Virus record (IMG/VR): IMGVR_UViG_3300044730_000425
Span: 1 to 23,104 of that record
DNA: 23,104 bases
Strand: one strand, 5' to 3'
From: a virus
The position numbers were made by a program, and so were the translations under genes. Numbering within the stretch: position 1 is the first letter of the stretch; each line of letters starts with the position of its first letter. The notes beneath the pieces were generated by a model. The model saw only the letters and a list, made by a program, of their open reading frames with translations. It did not search any database and was not told the DNA's origin. Below, one piece after another: positions 13,500 to 21,897 of this stretch.

Positions 13500-13621
13500 A
13501 GTTGCCCCCAATAACGCTGATTTAACGGTCCCTGTAAACGGGCAGACTATTCCCAATATAATTATAAATTATAAATTCTATATAGGAGGAGCGGAGTCTT
13601 AAACGGAGCGACTCCGTATAT

Positions 13622-13650
13622 TATATATATACTATAGATAACCTGTTCAA
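13622..13650 (-). promoter_or_regulatory. Candidate leftward promoter for the virion block
   Basis: On the minus strand, TTGAAC (13650-13645) is followed after 17 bases by TATATA (13627-13622). Transcription would start near 13615 and run into the terminase. The DNA here is so A/T-rich that a TATATA match is weak evidence; the better -35 and exact 17-base spacing are what recommend it. Confidence 0.35.
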
Positions 13651-13858
13651 AGTACTAAAAACGAACAGATAGGTTATAATTACGCTCATTCTGAGCGTAT
13701 AATATATATATCCCCCTATATAATATAACAGTAATTTTTTATGGGAGTATATATATGTATATTGACGCAGATTAAATAACCCTAGGGTCAAATCAAACCC
13801 TCAACCTTTACTAAAGGGTTAGAGTTTATTAACTCTCAACCTAATGTAGAGAATTAGA

Positions 13859-13867
13859 CTATCCACA
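13859..13867 (+). other. DnaA-box-like site CTATCCACA
   Basis: One mismatch to the bacterial DnaA box consensus TTATCCACA. Lies about 40 bases from a perfect copy in the same orientation. Confidence 0.4.
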
Positions 13868-13899
13868 ATAAAGATTTTCTACGGGGGCATAATAAATAA

Positions 13900-13908
13900 T
13901 TATCCACA
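13900..13908 (+). other. DnaA box TTATCCACA
   Basis: Perfect match to the consensus. It is followed by TGTGGACAG (13912-13920), a weaker box in the opposite orientation, so the two form an inverted pair. Confidence 0.5.
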
Positions 13909-13925
13909 ACCTGTGGACAGACTAC

Positions 13926-13939
13926 AACGAGGTCGGGCG
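13926..13939 (+). repeat. 14-bp direct repeat, copy 1
   Basis: AACGAGGTCGGGCG, repeated exactly at 13975-13988, 49 bases downstream. The first copy runs into a GGGCG/CGCCC hairpin (13935-13947). Confidence 0.7.
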
Positions 13940-13974
13940 TGTCGCCCAACACAAACCCTGAGAGTTTGCTGAGC

Positions 13975-13988
13975 AACGAGGTCGGGCG
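13975..13988 (+). repeat. 14-bp direct repeat, copy 2
   Basis: Exact copy of the 13926-13939 sequence. It overlaps the left arm of the longer inverted repeat that flanks the 14219 gene. Confidence 0.7.
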
Positions 13989-13997
13989 AGTCTAGCT
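13981..13997 (+). repeat. 17-bp inverted repeat flanking the 14219 gene, left arm
   Basis: GTCGGGCGAGTCTAGCT is the reverse complement of 14915-14931 at 15 of 17 positions. The two arms bracket the 14219 gene and its terminator. Confidence 0.65.
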
Positions 13998-14013
13998 ATC
14001 CCTTTTGTCCGAT

Positions 14014-14042
14014 TTGCCCTATCTGCCCCAGTATGATACAAT
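14014..14042 (+). promoter_or_regulatory. Candidate rightward promoter for the 14219 gene
   Basis: TTGCCC (14014-14019), a 17-base spacer and TACAAT (14037-14042) fit a housekeeping-sigma promoter with four of six matches at each box. It would give a leader of about 170 bases containing an ACTGG/CCAGT hairpin (14152-14166) and the palindrome at 14170. Confidence 0.45.
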
Positions 14043-14169
14043 TAGTCCTAATTGTCCTAGTTTGGTCGGTGTGATGTACTTCACAAAAGATTTTCGGGAA
14101 ATTAGCAAAATGAACTAGACAAAAGGCAGACCGAGGCACTAAATTTGGGGTACTGGAAAAACCAGTTAG

Positions 14170-14188
14170 GTGTCTGAAAATCAGACAC
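14170..14188 (+). repeat. Start-associated palindrome, copy 1
   Basis: GTGTCTGAAAATCAGACAC: perfect 8-bp arms around AAA. It ends 30 bases before the ATG at 14219, with GAAAAGGA in between. Acts at the DNA level as an operator or at the RNA level as a hairpin; unresolved. Confidence 0.8.
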
Positions 14189-14218
14189 TAGAAAATCCGA
14201 GAAAAGGAAAAGCACCAA

Positions 14219-14866
14219 ATGACTACAAAAGAAAAAGCACCAAAGGCAACAAAAGAAAAAGCACCAGTAGTACTGGATTCTCAAATAGTTAAAAACTATC
14301 GGGAACTAGTAAAGAATTCCCTAGAAAGTCACTGGGGATTTATCACCACTACTTATGGAAAAATGGTAGATGGCTCGGCTTCTGTCCGAATTGTTAAGGC
14401 TTCTATAAATGAAGCAAGCAAGGACGGAAAAGATTCCATCATCAAGGCATCACAGGTTGAGGGATTTGGAATTGCCCTAAAGGTCAAAACACTTTCGGGA
14501 GCAGATAAACAAACTATCTCCAACATCCTCAAGGTGTCCATGCGTGCCAAGCGTTTGGATGGTGTTGATGCGGTAGATTCCCTACTGGATGGTATCAAGA
14601 CTTACGAGGGATTTATCGCTAGGCTTGAGGATGCCGAGGATGCCAAAGCAGAAGCCACCGATAAGGCAGAAGCAGAAGCAGAAGCCACCGAGAAGCCACT
14701 CGATTTGGCGGGGATTACATGGGAAGCATTAGCGGAAATTGTAATTCGAAAGGCAAGCCTAGAAAAAAACATGGCGGACGCTTCATGCGATACAAAACTC
14801 GCAGGACAAGCCACCGCAGTTTTTCACCAACTAGTAAAAAATTCCAAGGTGAAGGCTAACGCTTAA
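14219..14866 (+). CDS. Unknown Lys/Ala/Glu-rich protein (215 aa) within the origin-like region
   Basis: No family recognised. The N-terminus carries a tandem repeat of T-K-E-K-A-P (residues 3-16), mirrored in the DNA by GAAAAAGCACCA units, and an almost identical unit even overlaps the ribosome binding region. The middle (about 30-125) looks globular and includes SHWGFITTTYGKMVDGSASV. An Ala/Glu/Asp/Lys low-complexity stretch lies at 135-155, and a helical C-terminal domain follows (ITWEALAEIVIRKASLEKNM). It stands alone: a candidate promoter and palindrome upstream, a strong terminator right after, and DnaA-like boxes, ACACAAAC words and 17-bp inverted arms on both sides. A role tied to replication or DNA binding is possible but only by position. 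Confidence 0.8.
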   Translation: MTTKEKAPKATKEKAPVVLDSQIVKNYRELVKNSLESHWGFITTTYGKMVDGSASVRIVKASINEASKDGKDSIIKASQVEGFGIALKVKTLSGADKQTISNILKVSMRAKRLDGVDAVDSLLDGIKTYEGFIARLEDAEDAKAEATDKAEAEAEATEKPLDLAGITWEALAEIVIRKASLEKNMADASCDTKLAGQATAVFHQLVKNSKVKANA

Positions 14867-14880
14867 ACCCGACAAAGTAG

Positions 14881-14914
14881 CCTCACCCCTTAGGGGGTGG
14901 GGTTATTTTTTTTT
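14881..14914 (+). terminator. Rho-independent terminator
   Basis: CCTCACCCC (14881-14889) pairs with GGGGTGGGG (14894-14902) around a TTAG loop, giving nine pairs including one G-T, followed by a long T-run. It ends transcription 15 bases after the 14219 gene. Confidence 0.9.
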
Positions 14915-14931
14915 AGCTAGACACGCCCGAG
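14915..14931 (-). repeat. 17-bp inverted repeat flanking the 14219 gene, right arm
   Basis: AGCTAGACACGCCCGAG pairs with 13981-13997 at 15 of 17 positions. Confidence 0.65.
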
Positions 14932-14942
14932 TGCGTTGTGAG

Positions 14943-14951
14943 TTATCCACA
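14943..14951 (+). other. DnaA box TTATCCACA
   Basis: Perfect consensus match, in the same orientation as the box at 13900 and immediately before the ACACAAAC cluster. Confidence 0.5.
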
Positions 14952-14957
14952 GCCCCG

Positions 14958-14993
14958 ACACAAACCAACACAAACCCCTTGCCCAACACAAAC
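14958..14993 (+). repeat. Iteron-like ACACAAAC cluster
   Basis: Three direct copies of ACACAAAC at 14958, 14968 and 14986. Further copies lie at 15058-15065 and, left of the gene, 13949-13956; the latter and the 14986 copy share the longer context GCCCAACACAAAC. Same-orientation clustering beside a DnaA box resembles plasmid or phage origin iterons. Two stray copies occur inside genes at about 17985 and 19700. Confidence 0.5.
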
Positions 14994-15121
14994 TATTAGA
15001 GGCGTGCTAGTGATTAGGTCGAAGCCACGAATCAAACCAGCCACAGAAATTTTTTCAACACAAACTCATGAGGCGAGGTGGGGAAACAACTCATGCGAAA
15101 ATGTGAGGGTCTAAGGGTGGC

Positions 15122-15138
15122 TGTCTGAAAATCAGACG
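15122..15138 (+). repeat. Start-associated palindrome, copy 2 (upstream of promoter)
   Basis: TGTCTGAAAATCAGACG; one end position is T opposite G. It lies 15 bases upstream of the -35 box at 15154 and is the only copy placed before a recognisable promoter. Confidence 0.75.
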
Positions 15139-15153
15139 CCCCTAAAAGTGAAT

Positions 15154-15182
15154 TTGACAATGAGCCTGAGGTATGTTATACT
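15154..15182 (+). promoter_or_regulatory. Strong housekeeping-type promoter
   Basis: TTGACA (15154-15159), exactly 17 bases, then TATACT (15177-15182). This is a near-consensus SigA/sigma-70 promoter. The start of transcription would fall near 15189, so the mRNA would begin with the ACTTAAG/CTTAAGT hairpin followed by the palindrome at 15215. Probably the main rightward early promoter. Confidence 0.85.
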
Positions 15183-15214
15183 GAAGCCACTTAAGAAAAA
15201 CTTGTCTTAAGTTA

Positions 15215-15232
15215 GTGTCTGAAAATCAGACA
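15215..15232 (+). repeat. Start-associated palindrome, copy 3
   Basis: GTGTCTGAAAATCAGACA, ending 14 bases before the ATG at 15247, with AGGATAA in between. Confidence 0.8.
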
Positions 15233-15246
15233 GTTAGGATAAACAA

Positions 15247-15393
15247 ATGCTAGACCAAAATATGGAAAATGCGTTAGTCCAACTAGCGCAAAAGATAGAC
15301 GCTAGTCATGAAGTAGAGCGTAATAAGTTAGAGCAAGCAAACCGCAATAAAGTTAATCCTGAGTACCTTCGGGTAATGGGGTTAGCATTATGA
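15247..15393 (+). CDS. Small unknown helical protein (48 aa)
   Basis: First gene after the strong promoter. The product starts MLDQNMENALVQLAQKIDAS and is a highly charged, probably all-helical peptide ending YLRVMGLAL. ATG at 15247 follows the palindrome and an AGGATAA site, and the stop overlaps the next ATG (TTATGA), which supports both starts. Being the first product of the rightward operon suggests an early host-interaction peptide, but nothing in the sequence names a function. Confidence 0.7.
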   Translation: MLDQNMENALVQLAQKIDASHEVERNKLEQANRNKVNPEYLRVMGLAL

Positions 15394-15533
15394 GCCCTGA
15401 CGATATTGCCCTAGACTTTATGACCGAAAGTGAAATAGCCGAGATTATAGCAACCGAGGATATTTTTCAAGTAGACCTGTCCAATATTGATGATTTACTT
15501 GAGGATGTTGCTTCGGACTCGGACTACGAATAG
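15390..15533 (+). CDS. Small acidic protein (47 aa)
   Basis: The product starts MSPDDIALDFMTESEIAEII and is strikingly acidic throughout, with an end of DVASDSDYE. Its ATG overlaps the upstream stop by four bases, so the two are translationally coupled. Highly acidic small phage proteins often mimic DNA or bind basic host proteins; that is only a possibility here. A GTTGCT/AGCAAC inverted repeat (15507-15512, 15532-15537) spans the stop codon. Confidence 0.7.
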   Translation: MSPDDIALDFMTESEIAEIIATEDIFQVDLSNIDDLLEDVASDSDYE

Positions 15534-15543
15534 CAACTGGACA

Positions 15544-15590
15544 GCCCACGCTGGTGCGTGTTATTATGGGTTCAATTCCCATAGTGGGCA
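15544..15590 (+). ncRNA. tRNA-like minihelix without an anticodon arm
   Basis: GCCCAC (15544-15549) pairs with GTGGGC (15584-15589) like an acceptor stem, followed by a discriminator-like A. Between them ATGGG-TTCAATT-CCCAT (15566-15582) is a perfect T arm with the invariant GTTCAA-type loop. Only about 15 bases (containing CTGGT, reminiscent of a D loop) lie between the 5' acceptor arm and the T arm, so D and anticodon stems are missing and the following bases are CGA rather than CCA. It may be a remnant of a tRNA gene, an attachment-site-like tRNA 3' end, or an RNA that mimics tRNA. It lies in a non-coding gap directly before palindrome copy 4. Confidence 0.5.
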
Positions 15591-15593
15591 CGA

Positions 15594-15612
15594 GTGTCTG
15601 AAAATCAGACAC
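15594..15612 (+). repeat. Start-associated palindrome, copy 4
   Basis: GTGTCTGAAAATCAGACAC, perfect. It ends 19 bases before ATG 15632, with GAAAGG in between. Confidence 0.8.
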
Positions 15613-15631
15613 TTATTAACGAAAGGCAATC

Positions 15632-15763
15632 ATGTATATCGAGATAACAGATACGATAGCAATTATAATTGCGCTAACTACTAGCACCACGCTGGTAATT
15701 ACTACCGCAATTAGAAATGCTAAACTTACTCGTGCTTTGCGTGAGTTAAGTGTCCAAAAGTAA
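15632..15763 (+). CDS. Small single-pass membrane protein (43 aa)
   Basis: The peptide starts MYIEITDTIAIIIALTTSTT and contains one long hydrophobic segment (about residues 5-27) followed by a basic tail (RNAKLTRALRELSVQK). This predicts a single transmembrane helix with a positive, probably cytoplasmic C-terminus. GAAAGG lies about eight bases before the ATG. Its 3' end overlaps the next gene by 14 bases. Small membrane peptides of phages include holins and superinfection-exclusion factors, but one helix without context cannot decide. Confidence 0.65.
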   Translation: MYIEITDTIAIIIALTTSTTLVITTAIRNAKLTRALRELSVQK

Positions 15764-15971
15764 TGTAGATTATGCCAATGAGATTATCCTGACACTTACT
15801 AGAGATGAACTAGAAACTGTCAGGGAATCTCTTAGGCAATTCTCTATACATAATACGAGGCATGGTTTCGAGGGGCGTGCTAAGTATGCTGATGATTTGC
15901 GAGATAAAATCGTGAATATAATTCTTGATAGTGTCCAGCGTAGAATTGACAAAGAGGCAGAGTTAGTGTAA
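15750..15971 (+). CDS. Small unknown protein (73 aa)
   Basis: Starts at GTG 15750, overlapping the membrane peptide gene; no ATG is available nearby and the ribosome site is weak. The product begins MSKSNVDYANEIILTLTRDE and continues as amphipathic helices with many Arg, Asp and Glu residues, ending QRRIDKEAELV. The opening strand followed by TRDELETVRESLRQF is reminiscent of small phage helical proteins, but I recognise no family. Palindrome copy 5 follows 21 bases after the stop. Confidence 0.7.
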   Translation: MSKSNVDYANEIILTLTRDELETVRESLRQFSIHNTRHGFEGRAKYADDLRDKIVNIILDSVQRRIDKEAELV

Positions 15972-15992
15972 ACTAATCTCACTCAACAAGAA

Positions 15993-16010
15993 GTGTCTGA
16001 AAATCAGACG
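15993..16010 (+). repeat. Start-associated palindrome, copy 5
   Basis: GTGTCTGAAAATCAGACG with a T opposite G at the arm end. It is followed by GAAAGGATAGAG and the ATG at 16023. Its own GTG is in frame with the gene, giving a spurious ten-residue extension. Confidence 0.8.
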
Positions 16011-16022
16011 GAAAGGATAGAG

Positions 16023-17249
16023 ATGGAAACTGTTGATGAGGTAGAAACCAAGTGTTGTATTGCTTGTGATACTACATTAGATAGTGATGATGGCAGTACT
16101 ACCAGTAGCGGAGACCCTGTCTGCGAAAGTTGTATGGTAATGTGTATGAAATGTGAAGATGTTATCACATGTGATGACGAATTCAATGATGTGGAGGGTG
16201 AGTTATGGTGTCAGGGTTGTACCCGTAATGATGCTCATTGGTGCGACTTGTGCGATACCTATTTCACGGGTTATACCTATGGTACAGACGATTGTACTGA
16301 CACTATGTGTGAGAGGTGTTATGAGAATAATACCCATTACTGCGAAACTTGTGATGCTACATATCTAAATGGTTGTGAGTACAACCATGATGAGGATAAT
16401 GATGGCAGGATAATACATGATTATTCGTATCGCCCTGACCCTATCTTTCGCAAGTCAGATGATGAGCAGACACGCTTGTACTTTGGCATAGAGATAGAAA
16501 CTGAGGTGAGAGGTGGCGACTATAGTTATAGGACTACTGCTGCCGAATATGCTCACCAACAGTTAGAGATGTATGACCTAGCCTATCTTAAATCTGATGG
16601 CTCACTTGAGTGTGGGTTTGAGATAGTATCGCATCCATTATCTCATAGTTATTTCATGAAGGATGCCACTAGGTTATGGGATACAGTAAGTAAACTTAAG
16701 AGTGATTATGGCATGATGGCGTGGGGTACGAAAACCTGCGGGCTTCATGTACATATATCTCGTGCTGGATTCAATGGTGGTTCACACCAACATAGATTCC
16801 TACAATTAGTTTACAATAACAAGGACTTTTATGAGGTGCTTGCTGGCAGGTCATCTAGTCATTGGGCTAAGTTTGATGATAATGTTGACCCCGATACTGG
16901 ACGGAAATCTTTTAAGCATAAGTTCGACAGGCATGGTAGCGATAGATACTCTGCTGTAAATACCAACAATAGAAATACTTTAGAGATGCGAATCTTTAGA
17001 GGTAGTTTGAATCCGAGATTCATTAAGTCTGCTATTGACTTAGCGCATGCCAGCGTTGAGTTCACTAGGGTAATGAGTGTCAAAGAAGTTAGAGATGGTG
17101 GTCTATCCTGTCTGAATTTCAGACAGTACATAGAGAGTAAGCCTGAGTTATATCCATCACTTATTGAAAGAATAAAAATCCATTCAGATGTTTTAACTAG
17201 GATAGAAAGGAAAGAGCATGTGCCTACTGGTAGTAAGTTCACCGAATAG
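16023..17249 (+). CDS. Phage-type amidoligase with N-terminal multi-CxxC zinc region
   Basis: Predicted ATP-dependent carboxylate-amine ligase of the amidoligase (Amidoligase_2 / glutamine-synthetase-like) superfamily. The 408-residue form begins at ATG 16023 behind GGAAAGGATAG. Residues 1-125 hold seven CxxC-type pairs (12-15, 34-37, 41-44, 63-66, 74-77, 96-99, 107-110), which would bind several zinc ions. The catalytic part shows FGIEIETE (154-161), LKSDGSLE (189-196), GFEIVS, CGLHVHIS (239-246) and EMRIFRGS (321-328), the metal- and nucleotide-binding strand pattern of this family. The gene overlaps the next, a glutamine amidotransferase, by 32 bases; that partner could supply ammonia. The acceptor is unknown; family members act on peptides or small metabolites. 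A further palindrome copy lies inside the gene at 17108. Confidence 0.8.
   Translation: METVDEVETKCCIACDTTLDSDDGSTTSSGDPVCESCMVMCMKCEDVITCDDEFNDVEGELWCQGCTRNDAHWCDLCDTYFTGYTYGTDDCTDTMCERCYENNTHYCETCDATYLNGCEYNHDEDNDGRIIHDYSYRPDPIFRKSDDEQTRLYFGIEIETEVRGGDYSYRTTAAEYAHQQLEMYDLAYLKSDGSLECGFEIVSHPLSHSYFMKDATRLWDTVSKLKSDYGMMAWGTKTCGLHVHISRAGFNGGSHQHRFLQLVYNNKDFYEVLAGRSSSHWAKFDDNVDPDTGRKSFKHKFDRHGSDRYSAVNTNNRNTLEMRIFRGSLNPRFIKSAIDLAHASVEFTRVMSVKEVRDGGLSCLNFRQYIESKPELYPSLIERIKIHSDVLTRIERKEHVPTGSKFTE
17108..17126 (+). repeat. Start-associated palindrome, intragenic copy 6
   Basis: CTGTCTGAATTTCAGACAG: perfect 8-bp arms with the outer pair swapped from G-C to C-G and an ATT centre. It is inside the amidoligase coding sequence, 91 bases before the next start, with no ribosome site directly after it. 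It may be functional or a chance variant constrained by coding. Confidence 0.6.
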
Positions 17250-18036
17250 CACACCACGCAAGAAGGATTTAGATAATGCTTCTTGTAATAATCCGCATGG
17301 CTTTGGCTATGCTGTACTTGCTGGTAATAAGATTATTACTGGTAAGGGTATGTCCGCTAAGAAAGTAATCAAAGAATTCTTAGAGGTACGTAAAAAATAT
17401 CCAAAGAGTTATGCTATGTATCATGCTAGATTTGCTACGCATGGCGTAAAGAATGAGGAAAACTGTCATCCATTCAAGGTAGGTGGTAGCGACCTTACAT
17501 ACCTAGCCCATAATGGTATATTACCTGTACATATTGAGCCTACTGACAAGCGTAGTGATACTCGCATATTTGCCGAGGATATACTACCATCAATGGGTGG
17601 CATTACAGCGTTAGACAATCCTAATCTGTATGGCATGATAGAGAAATGGTCTGCTGGCAATAAGATAGCGGTCTTTACCTTAGACCCTAATGCTGAGTAC
17701 GATTGCTACATCATCAACGAGGACTTAGGTCATTGGGACAATGAGGGCAACTGGTGGTCTAACGATGGCTACAAGCCTAGTGTTTATAGTAAGTACTTTA
17801 ATTACTATAATGATGGTAGTGATATAGGTAATGCCGAAGATGATTACATATGCTACGGATGCGGTGAACCAGTAATGGATGATGGTAATCCATATCATTG
17901 TCAAACATGCCTTACATGCTTTGATTGCAGTATGGTCAAAGATGATGGATGCATGTGCTGGTCGCCTGAATACGACGCATACCGACACAAACAAATGACG
18001 GGAGTATACAATGGACAGTATGACTTTGGCTTCTAA
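17218..18036 (+). CDS. Class II glutamine amidotransferase with C-terminal zinc ribbon
   Basis: Predicted Ntn-type glutaminase that releases ammonia from glutamine. The product starts MCLLVV, placing Cys at position 2 as the N-terminal nucleophile after Met removal. GFGYA (28-32), HARFATHG (69-76), CHPF (83-86), AHNGIL (97-102) and DTR (114-116) match conserved segments of class II enzymes. From about 210 there is a Cys-rich tail: CYGC (212-215), CQTC (228-231), CFDC (234-237) and CMC (245-247), probably zinc-binding. ATG 17218 has AAGGAAAG upstream and overlaps the amidoligase end by 32 bases, and a start coding Met-Cys is required for activity, so this start is firm. The tail echoes the zinc region of its neighbour and suggests a physical complex. 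Confidence 0.85.
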   Translation: MCLLVVSSPNSTPRKKDLDNASCNNPHGFGYAVLAGNKIITGKGMSAKKVIKEFLEVRKKYPKSYAMYHARFATHGVKNEENCHPFKVGGSDLTYLAHNGILPVHIEPTDKRSDTRIFAEDILPSMGGITALDNPNLYGMIEKWSAGNKIAVFTLDPNAEYDCYIINEDLGHWDNEGNWWSNDGYKPSVYSKYFNYYNDGSDIGNAEDDYICYGCGEPVMDDGNPYHCQTCLTCFDCSMVKDDGCMCWSPEYDAYRHKQMTGVYNGQYDFGF

Positions 18037-18151
18037 AGAAGAAGTCAGAAAAGTAATTATAGAGTTAATCTCTATCGCTAATTTGACAACCGAAAGAGAT
18101 GATGTTATAATTGCTAATGCTAGACTAATACTACAAAAACTAGGTGTCTGA
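18011..18151 (+). CDS. Small unknown helical protein (46 aa)
   Basis: Begins at ATG 18011 after a GGGAG site and overlaps the amidotransferase end by 26 bases in another frame. The product starts MDSMTLASKEEVRKVIIELI and is likely two helices. Its TGA stop lies inside palindrome copy 7, so translation of this gene would run through part of the palindrome. No family recognised. Confidence 0.6.
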   Translation: MDSMTLASKEEVRKVIIELISIANLTTERDDVIIANARLILQKLGV

Positions 18152-18162
18152 AAATCAGACAC
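18144..18162 (+). repeat. Start-associated palindrome, copy 7
   Basis: GTGTCTGAAAATCAGACAC, perfect. It ends 14 bases before ATG 18177, with GAAAAGGATAGAT in between; it also contains the stop codon of the preceding small gene. Confidence 0.8.
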
Positions 18163-18176
18163 AGAAAAGGATAGAT

Positions 18177-18404
18177 ATGAAACTAAAAGTACACCACCCA
18201 AGCGGTGATGTGATAGCAGAGGTGTATGATTTTGCTGCTGGCGCATTACTAATGAGTCTGTATGGAGATGGCTCGCATATTTCATACAGGGGCAAAGCAT
18301 TATGGCGTGAAGGCATAGATGGTGAGGGTGCCGAGAGTTATGATACAACAAGCATGGTAATAGATAGCCGACTAATAGAAATGGGAGTACAAGTTGACGG
18401 GTGA
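18177..18404 (+). CDS. Small unknown protein (75 aa)
   Basis: ATG 18177 is chosen over the in-frame GTG inside the palindrome because AAAAGGATAG lies at proper spacing and the other palindrome-led genes start in the same way. The product starts MKLKVHHPSGDVIAEVYDFA and has alternating strand-like segments, ending MGVQVDG. Such short beta-rich proteins could be regulators or inhibitors, but I see no diagnostic motif. It overlaps the next gene by 11 bases. Confidence 0.7.
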   Translation: MKLKVHHPSGDVIAEVYDFAAGALLMSLYGDGSHISYRGKALWREGIDGEGAESYDTTSMVIDSRLIEMGVQVDG

Positions 18405-18636
18405 AGTAACGATTACGGAACTAATGGATACTTACATGATATCATCTGATGAAAAGATGAGTACTGGGTTCACTAAATCTATTATCATGAATGATGGGAC
18501 TAATCAGTATTCGGGTAGACTTCATTGGGATTCTAATGATGGATACTCTATGGCGTGGGATACATCTGCGCCACCTGAGGCAGACCGCCCCGAGTTCGAA
18601 TATGTACTTGATTGCATAACAGACTTGGAGAGATAA
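18394..18636 (+). CDS. Small unknown acidic protein (80 aa)
   Basis: Likely starts at TTG 18394, seven bases after a GGGAG site, with ATG 18424 as an alternative. The product includes TITELMDTYMISSDEKMSTG, then SGRLHWDSNDGYSMAWDTSA, and ends YVLDCITDLER. It is acidic and beta-rich. The stop overlaps the following ATG (TAATG). No family recognised. Confidence 0.65.
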   Translation: MTGEVTITELMDTYMISSDEKMSTGFTKSIIMNDGTNQYSGRLHWDSNDGYSMAWDTSAPPEADRPEFEYVLDCITDLER

Positions 18637-18782
18637 TGGAAAATGTAGACGAAGTATTGTGGGAAGCAAGAGTTAGAAGGATGGATGTTGGCGATATGGG
18701 CGATGAGGAAATCAAAGCCTTGCAACTAGAACTTACAAATGCTATGCGTAGAATTATGTGGGACTACGGAATAGTAAACTAA
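18636..18782 (+). CDS. Small unknown helical protein (48 aa)
   Basis: Starts at ATG 18636, sharing a base with the upstream stop, and ends just before palindrome copy 8. The peptide begins MENVDEVLWEARVRRMDVGD and continues EEIKALQLELTNAMRRIMWD, charged and amphipathic helices. Position and overlap are the main evidence that it is a gene. Confidence 0.6.
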   Translation: MENVDEVLWEARVRRMDVGDMGDEEIKALQLELTNAMRRIMWDYGIVN

Positions 18783-18783
18783 C

Positions 18784-18800
18784 TGTCTGAAATTCAGACA
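18784..18800 (+). repeat. Start-associated palindrome, copy 8
   Basis: TGTCTGAAATTCAGACA: perfect 7-bp arms with an AAT centre. It ends 14 bases before GTG 18815, with AAGGAGGATA in between, the strongest ribosome site of the set. Confidence 0.8.
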
Positions 18801-21169: not shown

Positions 21170-21897
21170 GTCTTACCTTCCACAGTAAAAGACCTATTTA
21201 CGATAGGTACTAATTGAGGCACAACAGTTTTGCCATCAACATGCAAGATGCCAAAGCCTTGTTGCCACGTAAACAATCCAGCCTTAATATATTTAGCACT
21301 ACTATAATTCATTAGATTGCCTAGTTCCATGCCCCAAATTGTTTTAGGTTTACCACCACGATATGTTTGAGTATGGTGAGTCAAACCCATACGATGCGTG
21401 TGCCCACAGACTACTGACATGCCTGAGCGTTTGGCTAATCCAAGGGCTGTAGCACCAGCCGTAGGCTGTACGTTACCCTCATCACCATGCATTAACAACC
21501 AGCCAGGAGCCAGTTCATATGGGTCTTTGTGATATTTAATTTCTAATTCATCAAGACCTAAGAAGTTTTCCAACTGCAACTCAGGTAAACCAAGTAGTCC
21601 TGGTGCTCTCATAGCAACTGTATTAAATAATCTATCTGTATGGTTGCTACGAATCATATGCTCAACAGTTAAGTCATAAAGAACTTGGCGAGTAGTGTCT
21701 CTATCACGTCCGATAGAACGTTCAAACTCTAACTCAGTCCCTTTACTCCATTTCGATATAGTCTGCATATCCATTTCGTCACCACAGGATACGACAGTAT
21801 CAGGTTGGTAAGCCTTAATGAATTTAGCCACAGCCTTAACTGCTTCTACATCGTGGTACGGTACTTGAAGGTCTGAGATACATACAATAGTTTTCAT
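21157..21897 (-). CDS. Calcineurin-like metallophosphoesterase
   Basis: Predicted two-metal phosphoesterase. Ligand motifs appear in the right order: SDLQVPYHD (Asp9, His15), SCGDEMD (Asp40), SNHTDRL in place of GNHD (Asn85, His86), LLMHGDEG (His137) and CGHTHRMG (His166, His168). The 246-residue size fits phage enzymes of this class. It overlaps the methyltransferase stop by one base (TAATG), and the following sigma-like gene overlaps it, so the operon is tightly coupled. Substrate could be nucleic acid ends or nucleotides; motifs alone do not tell. Confidence 0.88.
   Translation of the reverse strand: MKTIVCISDLQVPYHDVEAVKAVAKFIKAYQPDTVVSCGDEMDMQTISKWSKGTELEFERSIGRDRDTTRQVLYDLTVEHMIRSNHTDRLFNTVAMRAPGLLGLPELQLENFLGLDELEIKYHKDPYELAPGWLLMHGDEGNVQPTAGATALGLAKRSGMSVVCGHTHRMGLTHHTQTYRGGKPKTIWGMELGNLMNYSSAKYIKAGLFTWQQGFGILHVDGKTVVPQLVPIVNRSFTVEGKTWKW

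Follow-up and report, generated by a model that had tools for sequence, protein, structure and literature searches.

Switching palindromes and a candidate self-encoded early-gene regulator in freshwater actinophages

Several systems of repeated regulatory sites have been described in phages and plasmids. The cluster A stoperators (L5, TipsytheTRex) are 13-bp asymmetric sites that are oriented with transcription, distributed genome-wide and bound by a monomer, and the phages carrying them are temperate (PMC9283540, PMC6550527). For the cluster K phages, passages of PMC3203893 describe 13-bp asymmetric, ribosome-site-like start-associated sequences (SAS) as well as extended ones (ESAS), which consist of two imperfect 17-bp repeats 4-13 bp apart. 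The ESAS are inverted repeats whose consensus differs by subcluster; their authors favour DNA-binding proteins of different specificity, and no cognate protein is named in those passages. KorB of plasmid RK2 is a CTP-dependent clamp of the ParB family (PMC11790492). Here, a 17-bp palindrome, TGTCTGA-N3-TCAGACA, was analysed in positions 1 to 23,104 of the virus record IMGVR_UViG_3300044730_000425; this whole stretch of 23,104 nucleotides is referred to as the window. Based on sequence comparison and one predicted monomer structure, it was concluded that the palindromes are very probably dyad DNA operators rather than translation-start sequences. They are likely the operators of a phage-encoded early-gene regulator, the product of 14219-14866, which would act as a repressor or roadblock and would change its specificity jointly with its sites.

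Eight copies of the palindrome were found in the 23.1-kb window, as a preliminary description of this DNA had stated; all of them were on the + strand within 14171-18800 and had no more than one mismatch. The 17-mer was matched exactly at six sites, the copies at 15122 and 15994 deviated by the final base only, and the 15-bp core (GTCTGA-N3-TCAGAC) was free of mismatches in 8/8 sites. The only further match at up to 3 mismatches was located at 21870 (3 mismatches), so the reported absence of copies from the leftward part of the window was correct. The same search in shuffled sequences gave a mean of 1.1 matches and a maximum of 4. Among 94 other viral loci, at least three copies of one such palindrome were recorded in two, one of which (L092) turned out to be a member of the present phage family. 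The eight copies were as follows.

14171-14187, + strand: palindrome 1, a putative autoregulatory operator within the regulator gene's 5' leader
15122-15138, + strand: palindrome 2, upstream of the -35 box of the putative 15154 promoter, paired with palindrome 3 at 94 bp
15216-15232, + strand: palindrome 3, between the putative 15154 promoter and the start of open reading frame (ORF) 15247
15595-15611, + strand: palindrome 4, before ORF 15632
15994-16010, + strand: palindrome 5, before the amidoligase ORF 16023
17109-17125, + strand: palindrome 6, inside the amidoligase ORF 16023-17249 and 93 bp before the glutamine-amidotransferase-like ORF 17218
18145-18161, + strand: palindrome 7, overlapping the stop codon of ORF 18011-18151 and preceding ORF 18177
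18784-18800, + strand: palindrome 8, before ORF 18815 (GTG start)

The gaps between the core end and the start codon were 32, 15, 21, 13, 16 and 15 bases for the cores at 14172, 15217, 15596, 15995, 18146 and 18785, respectively. Counted from the end of the 17-mer, six copies sat 12-31 bases 5' of a start codon (six had been noticed earlier, at 12-30 bases), and the remaining two cores, 15123 and 17110, were 109 and 93 bases away from the next start. An AAGGATA-like ribosome site followed the palindrome directly in 4/8 cases (15216, 15994, 18145, 18784). A definition of the element by the ribosome site or by its association with starts was not supported. Some copies were located inside coding sequence or at the ends of genes and one preceded a promoter, and coding sequence was overlapped in all three frames (CLNFRQ at 17109, GV-stop at 18145 and a SENQT type in relatives), which led to the DNA dyad being taken as the unit. 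The AAA centre of the window palindromes had a constant orientation relative to the genes.

A scan for the exact palindrome retrieved close relatives (group A), more distant ones (group C) and the unrelated HMO-2011-like marine phages (group B; DNA polymerase 78% identical). The 94-bp pairing of palindromes 2 and 3 was conserved in group A. In two near-complete relatives of 40.7 kb, seven copies each were confined to one 4-kb early module, and in 16 near-complete contigs all copies lay within 3.7-6.3 kb of about 40 kb. The random genome-wide placement named earlier as a counterargument was not observed in near-complete relatives, where the element was restricted to one early module. At the place of the window palindrome, L092 carried GTCATA-N3-TATGAC; hence relatives were searched by the amidotransferase gene, which resulted in 80 loci, and the most frequent 6+6 palindrome was taken for each locus without a presupposed sequence. 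Genes outside the window were called by a simple script. One palindrome, in 3-10 copies, was carried by 75/80 relatives (76/81 with the window), and 21 palindrome sequence classes were distinguished, window included. Relative to the start of the amidotransferase gene, the copies of close relatives, whatever their class, were positioned at about -3.1, -2.1, -2.0, -1.6, -1.2, -0.1, +0.9 and +1.6 kb; this positional conservation was derived from coordinates, and base-level alignment with the window worked for part of the sites. The absence from close relatives that had been named earlier as a counterargument was not observed: the palindrome was kept at corresponding positions, though its sequence switched in concert.

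Single sites illustrated such switching. At site 18146 a switched palindrome was embedded in flanks 84% (G030, TGCCGTA), 82% (L154, TGTCATA) and 74% (G029, TGTATTA) identical to those of the window. The coding-sequence site 17110 read TGTATTAATTTAATACA in G029, of the TGTATTA class, with amino acids changed. The same site was decayed in G030, L154 and G038, which belong to three other classes and had flank identities of 91, 94 and 89%, respectively.

The first gene of the early module carrying the palindromes was the candidate for their cognate regulator, and the following features were assigned to it.

14219-14866, + strand: putative cognate regulator, 215 amino acids, whose divergence tracks palindrome class; Glu81 codon at 14459-14461
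14116-14145, + strand: putative sigma-70 promoter of the regulator gene, TAGACA-N18-TAAATT, consensus match 9/12
14874-14919, + strand: strong intrinsic terminator-like hairpin with a T run, directly 3' of the regulator gene

The pairwise identity of each protein family was compared with the median of the same genomes and split by same or different palindrome class. The 14219 family (58 genomes) was the widespread family that followed palindrome class most strongly: same-class pairs were 9 points below the genome median and different-class pairs 47 points below, a difference of 38. For most other widespread families the difference ranged from -10 to +16 points. At an amidotransferase identity of 85-95%, the putative DNA-binding region (residues 21-110) was 81% identical in 36 same-class pairs, as against 22% in 20 pairs of different class. 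Distant clades sharing one class had a moderate regulator identity of 41-56% at a marker identity of 57-65%, and classes may recur by transfer or by convergence. The regulator was present in 60 contigs, and palindromes were found in 60/60 of these; the 16 palindrome contigs without the regulator all began no more than 2.8 kb from the marker (amidotransferase) gene and so did not cover its position. A palindrome lay 26-228 bp upstream of the regulator start in 56/60 contigs (50 exact, 6 with 1-2 mismatches), and in the other four the upstream stretch was cut by the contig end. The earlier proposal of a genome-specific element, by which one trans-acting factor controls a regulon of small early genes, was supported.

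No Pfam, PHROG or PDB sequence-family match was obtained for the 14219 protein, and in a tblastn search for named isolates, five members of the family had no match among 50,697 phage records. A canonical phage repressor was considered and rejected, as no HTH_3 match was found in 25 records. The AF2 model, a single predicted monomer, had a mean pLDDT of 83.7 and of about 96 over residues 41-110. A helix-turn-helix was predicted in it, formed by helices 56-67 and 77-89, with residue 81 near the start of the latter; residues 56, 57 and 81 tracked half-site bases, and there was no significant structural template.

The covariation of protein and site was investigated in the odd-centre classes, reduced to 17 lineages less than 50% identical within a class, by comparing each alignment column with each half-site position (1288 tests). 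The highest mutual information of all tests, 1.58 bits, was recorded for residue 81 and half-site base 4 (EEEDQQPPPPSQQEQQE versus CCCCAATTTTTAACAAC across the lineages). The pairing Glu/Asp with C, Gln with A and Pro/Ser with T held in 17/17 lineages. This score was reached by 0/2000 shuffles, a p-value that is optimistic because the shuffles ignore ancestry; the pattern was spotted by eye in the same sequences before it was tested over all columns. Residues 56 and 57, at the start of the preceding helix, tracked half-site bases 1-3. In loci fetched later, the base-4 rule held in 6/8 odd-centre cases, some of the eight being close to proteins used before. The class TGTAAGAT, unseen in the set from which the rule was found, carried Gln as predicted.

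Further putative sigma-70 promoters were located near the palindromes.

15154-15182, + strand: putative promoter, TTGACA-N17-TATACT, 11/12, between palindromes 2 and 3
15946-15974, + strand: putative promoter, TTGACA-N17-TAAACT, 10/12, upstream of palindrome 5
18083-18111, + strand: putative promoter, TTGACA-N17-TATAAT, 12/12, upstream of palindrome 7

Another match on the + strand, at 15538 (10/12), overlapped a tRNA-like element and may not be a promoter. The matches at 18083, 15154, 15538 and 15946, the best on the + strand, and that at 14116 ended 20-34 bp before a palindrome core. Across the relatives, a promoter match of at least 10/12 with its -10 box ending no more than 60 bp upstream accompanied 91/421 distinct sites, compared with 3% of random positions; these sites mostly lay 20-38 bp from the -10 box, with a mode of 31-34. 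Other sites were inside operons or beside terminators. A protein bound at a promoter-linked site would be located at about +15 to +45 of the transcript. The terminator directly after the regulator gene makes it a one-gene unit, and its own promoter match, site and terminator are consistent with negative autoregulation.

It was proposed that the 14219 protein probably binds as a dimer, each 8-bp half-site being contacted by one helix-turn-helix, at positions that follow closely on early promoters or fall between early genes. The bound protein would most likely block promoter escape or elongation, that of its own gene included, and the early genes would shut down together once enough protein had been made. 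Since protein and sites change specificity together between relatives, the action of the protein would be limited to phages of its own class, and it could influence how co-infecting or superinfecting phages compete. We infer that the protein binds directly and as a dimer and that it represses rather than activates, as well as the timing and any effect on superinfection. Judged by analogy with the stoperators, roadblock repression would be the best fit to the placement of the sites.

The sites, their positional conservation, the concerted switching and the association with the 14219 protein and one predicted helix-turn-helix residue are supported by computation. Several observations weigh against the proposal. 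In less similar relatives several sites were not alignable to the window. The smaller neighbour families 15247 (class difference of 39 points, 20 genomes), 15390 (25) and 15750 (22) also tracked class to some degree, which means that linkage within the module contributes. The fold search of the AF2 model against the PDB gave no significant match; one viral model, A0A6G6XMX5, matched the fold (E 8.6e-4, TM 0.30). As a strong sigma-70 match was missing from the 60 bp upstream of 78% of sites, direct promoter occlusion cannot be general. The base-4 rule was derived from odd-centre palindromes only; two of the eight later proteins deviated from it (Ala with T, His with A), and the even-centre classes, which lie outside the rule, carried E, P, S, R or K at residue 81. 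Finally, L154 retained one site of another class, TGTCTGA at the 18785 position, which suggests that the switching of sites can be incomplete. This locus, which is on the same contig as L092, is a mixed genome with four TGTCATA sites and one TGTCTGA site, possibly caught mid-switch or recombined.

Four other explanations were considered. The palindromes might act in RNA, as hairpins that lie beside the ribosome site and regulate translation or the stability of the mRNA: six of the eight were in 5' leaders at 12-31 nt from a start, a hairpin of 7-8 bp was possible at each, and the AAA centre always faced the same way relative to the window genes. However, the outermost pair among distinct sites was C.A, which is unable to pair, 11 times and C-G only once, in G001 and L063 the orthologue of site 18146 had the reverse centre, TTT instead of AAA, and some classes, TCCGTTTAAACGGA among them, were loop-free perfect palindromes. 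Some copies also fell within ORFs, and in different frames, others preceded a promoter or adjoined terminators, and the sequence itself, beyond mere pairing, followed residues of the predicted helix-turn-helix. Hairpins in RNA are very unlikely on this evidence, and the outer pair, the flipped centres and the coding frames were the grounds for rejecting them. Activation or anti-roadblock action by the same DNA-binding protein, turning early genes on, would draw on identical evidence of binding, and site 15122, upstream of a -35 box, is a possible activator position. Such a role is nevertheless unlikely, as most promoter-linked sites lay 20-38 bp downstream of the -10 box, where a bound protein usually blocks, and the best promoters were already near consensus (12/12, 11/12) and should work without an activator.

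A further alternative is that the sites form centromere-like (parS-like) clusters, serving partition, packaging or DNA organisation, and that the protein is ParB-like. In its favour are the many identical 16-17 bp dyads close to the gene of the protein taken to bind them, and a ParB-parS structure (6t1f) was the most probable, at 0.13, among the non-significant PDB fold matches. We regard this as very improbable, given that neither a ParA family (PF13614) nor an integrase (PF00589, PF00239) match was found in the 16 near-complete records and that the sites were placed by gene starts and promoters, not in one cluster. The preliminary description had left the choice between a phage and a host factor, of which the phage-encoded protein at 14219-14866 was upheld. 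Phages often borrow host regulators, and the unrelated HMO-2011-like marine phages bear the same TGTCTGA palindrome. A host-encoded regulator is highly improbable nonetheless, because close relatives carry different palindromes, each matching its own 14219 protein. Profile comparison showed the first-gene protein of the HMO-like group to be unrelated, a sign of independent convergence on the palindrome; with CRP-1 gp01 being unrelated as well, a shared host factor was rejected. The 14219 protein, encoded by the phage itself, most likely serves as a repressor or roadblock of early genes in freshwater actinophages.

A wider interpretation is offered tentatively, namely that a previously undescribed regulator family of freshwater actinophages is split into about 20 exclusive specificities with a simple base-4 code, and that its 5-10 dispersed sites are rewritten in place, as complete sets, on a change of the protein. 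If true, it would amount to an immunity-like arms race in phages showing no sign of lysogeny. For an unknown protein family, a function is proposed and a binding site predicted, with one residue as a candidate determinant of specificity, and about 20 natural matched regulator-operator pairs would form a resource for studying the evolution of DNA-binding specificity and the joint change of dispersed sites. If repression is true, phages without detected lysogeny genes have the class-specific regulation known from temperate phages, which bears on competition during co-infection.

The TerL, portal, WhiB and sigma-like proteins encoded in the window identified an actinobacterial tailed phage. Its terminase was 74% identical to those of the Ca. 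Planktophila phages LanE43AprF5 and AprE7. The nearest cultured relatives infect Ca. Planktophila, of the order Nanopelagicales, abundant freshwater actinobacteria (PMC10202952). We infer from the sequence a host in or near Nanopelagicales; a search with the terminase among genome contigs for a host gave no relative. The F5 genome contained relatives of most other window genes and none of the genes between 14219 and 18955. Neither the 14219 protein nor any comparable repeated palindrome was found in the two Ca. Planktophila phage isolates (OX376641, OX376640) or in Streptomyces phage FlowerPower. ORF 16023-17249 encodes an amidoligase (Pfam PF12224), and ORF 17218 a glutamine-amidotransferase-like protein below Pfam's cut-off. 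These genes (16023-18036) are adjacent and hold several CxxC motifs each, and they were found in nearly all relatives.

Several other elements were observed. A tRNA-like mini-element of 47-52 nt lay at 15544-15593, between ORF 15390-15533 and palindrome 4; it had an acceptor stem and a T-arm with a TTCRATT loop, had no D or anticodon arm, and was not reported as a tRNA by ARAGORN. The element recurred in many relatives with different sequences, and over 16 distinct sequences 97.6% of pair cells were standard pairs, with 36 compensatory cells. The AT-rich divergent intergenic region at 13560-14110 and 14920-15100, with the short repeats CACAAAC and CGAGGTCGGGCG, is possibly an origin or control region. 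Beyond the present family, the HMO-2011-like group B, with locus L130 (4568-11276), carried repeated TGTCTGA-N3 palindromes. AGTCCG-N4-CGGACT palindromes occurred in HMO-2011 (NC_021864, positions 60, 1261 and 1926) and GTCCAA-N2-TTGGAC palindromes in CRP-1 (MK613343, positions 429, 1059, 2228 and 6868). Several palindromes of these unrelated marine podophages stood before early genes, and these phages may have an independent second system of this type. Six AGGACA-N2-TGTCCT copies, mostly intergenic by appearance, were found in L105 (5277-7635), a viral contig of 57% GC.

Compared with the described systems, the present locus resembles the cluster K sequences, as far as the passages of PMC3203893 describe them, in having repeats just 5' of the start codons of non-structural genes, and the likeness to ESAS drawn in the preliminary description is apt as to arrangement. 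It differs from SAS in that no GGGATAGGAGCCC-like 13-mer was found 3-7 bp before the starts; the sequence between palindrome and start, read at each site, held ordinary AGGA-type ribosome sites only. In place of the ESAS pair of repeats next to SAS, a single 17-bp dyad with a centre of 1-3 bp was found. Like KorB with its OB operators (PMC11790492), the system would comprise a self-encoded global silencer with repeated operators on one replicon; unlike ParB/KorB, the 14219 protein had no Pfam, PHROG or PDB sequence match (best ParB fold match: E 4.2, probability 0.13), and no partner ParA ATPase (PF13614) was matched in 16 records. With the cluster A repressor and its stoperators it shares many dispersed sites, of which some are at promoters and a large number occupy short gaps between genes (PMC9283540, PMC6550527), a phage-encoded putative DNA-binding protein, and the co-divergence of site consensus and protein between related phages. 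In contrast to the temperate cluster A phages, PF00589 (16 records), PF00239 (16) and HTH_3 (25) were not matched, and the 14219 protein had no detected sequence relation to any solved structure. The sites are dyads of 16-18 bp with centres either way round, confined to about 5 kb, and in the 16 near-complete contigs the genome-wide spread of stoperators is replaced by a stretch of 3.7-6.3 kb. Moreover, a large part of the half-site is rewritten when specificity changes, even where two phages share more than 90% identity in a marker gene.

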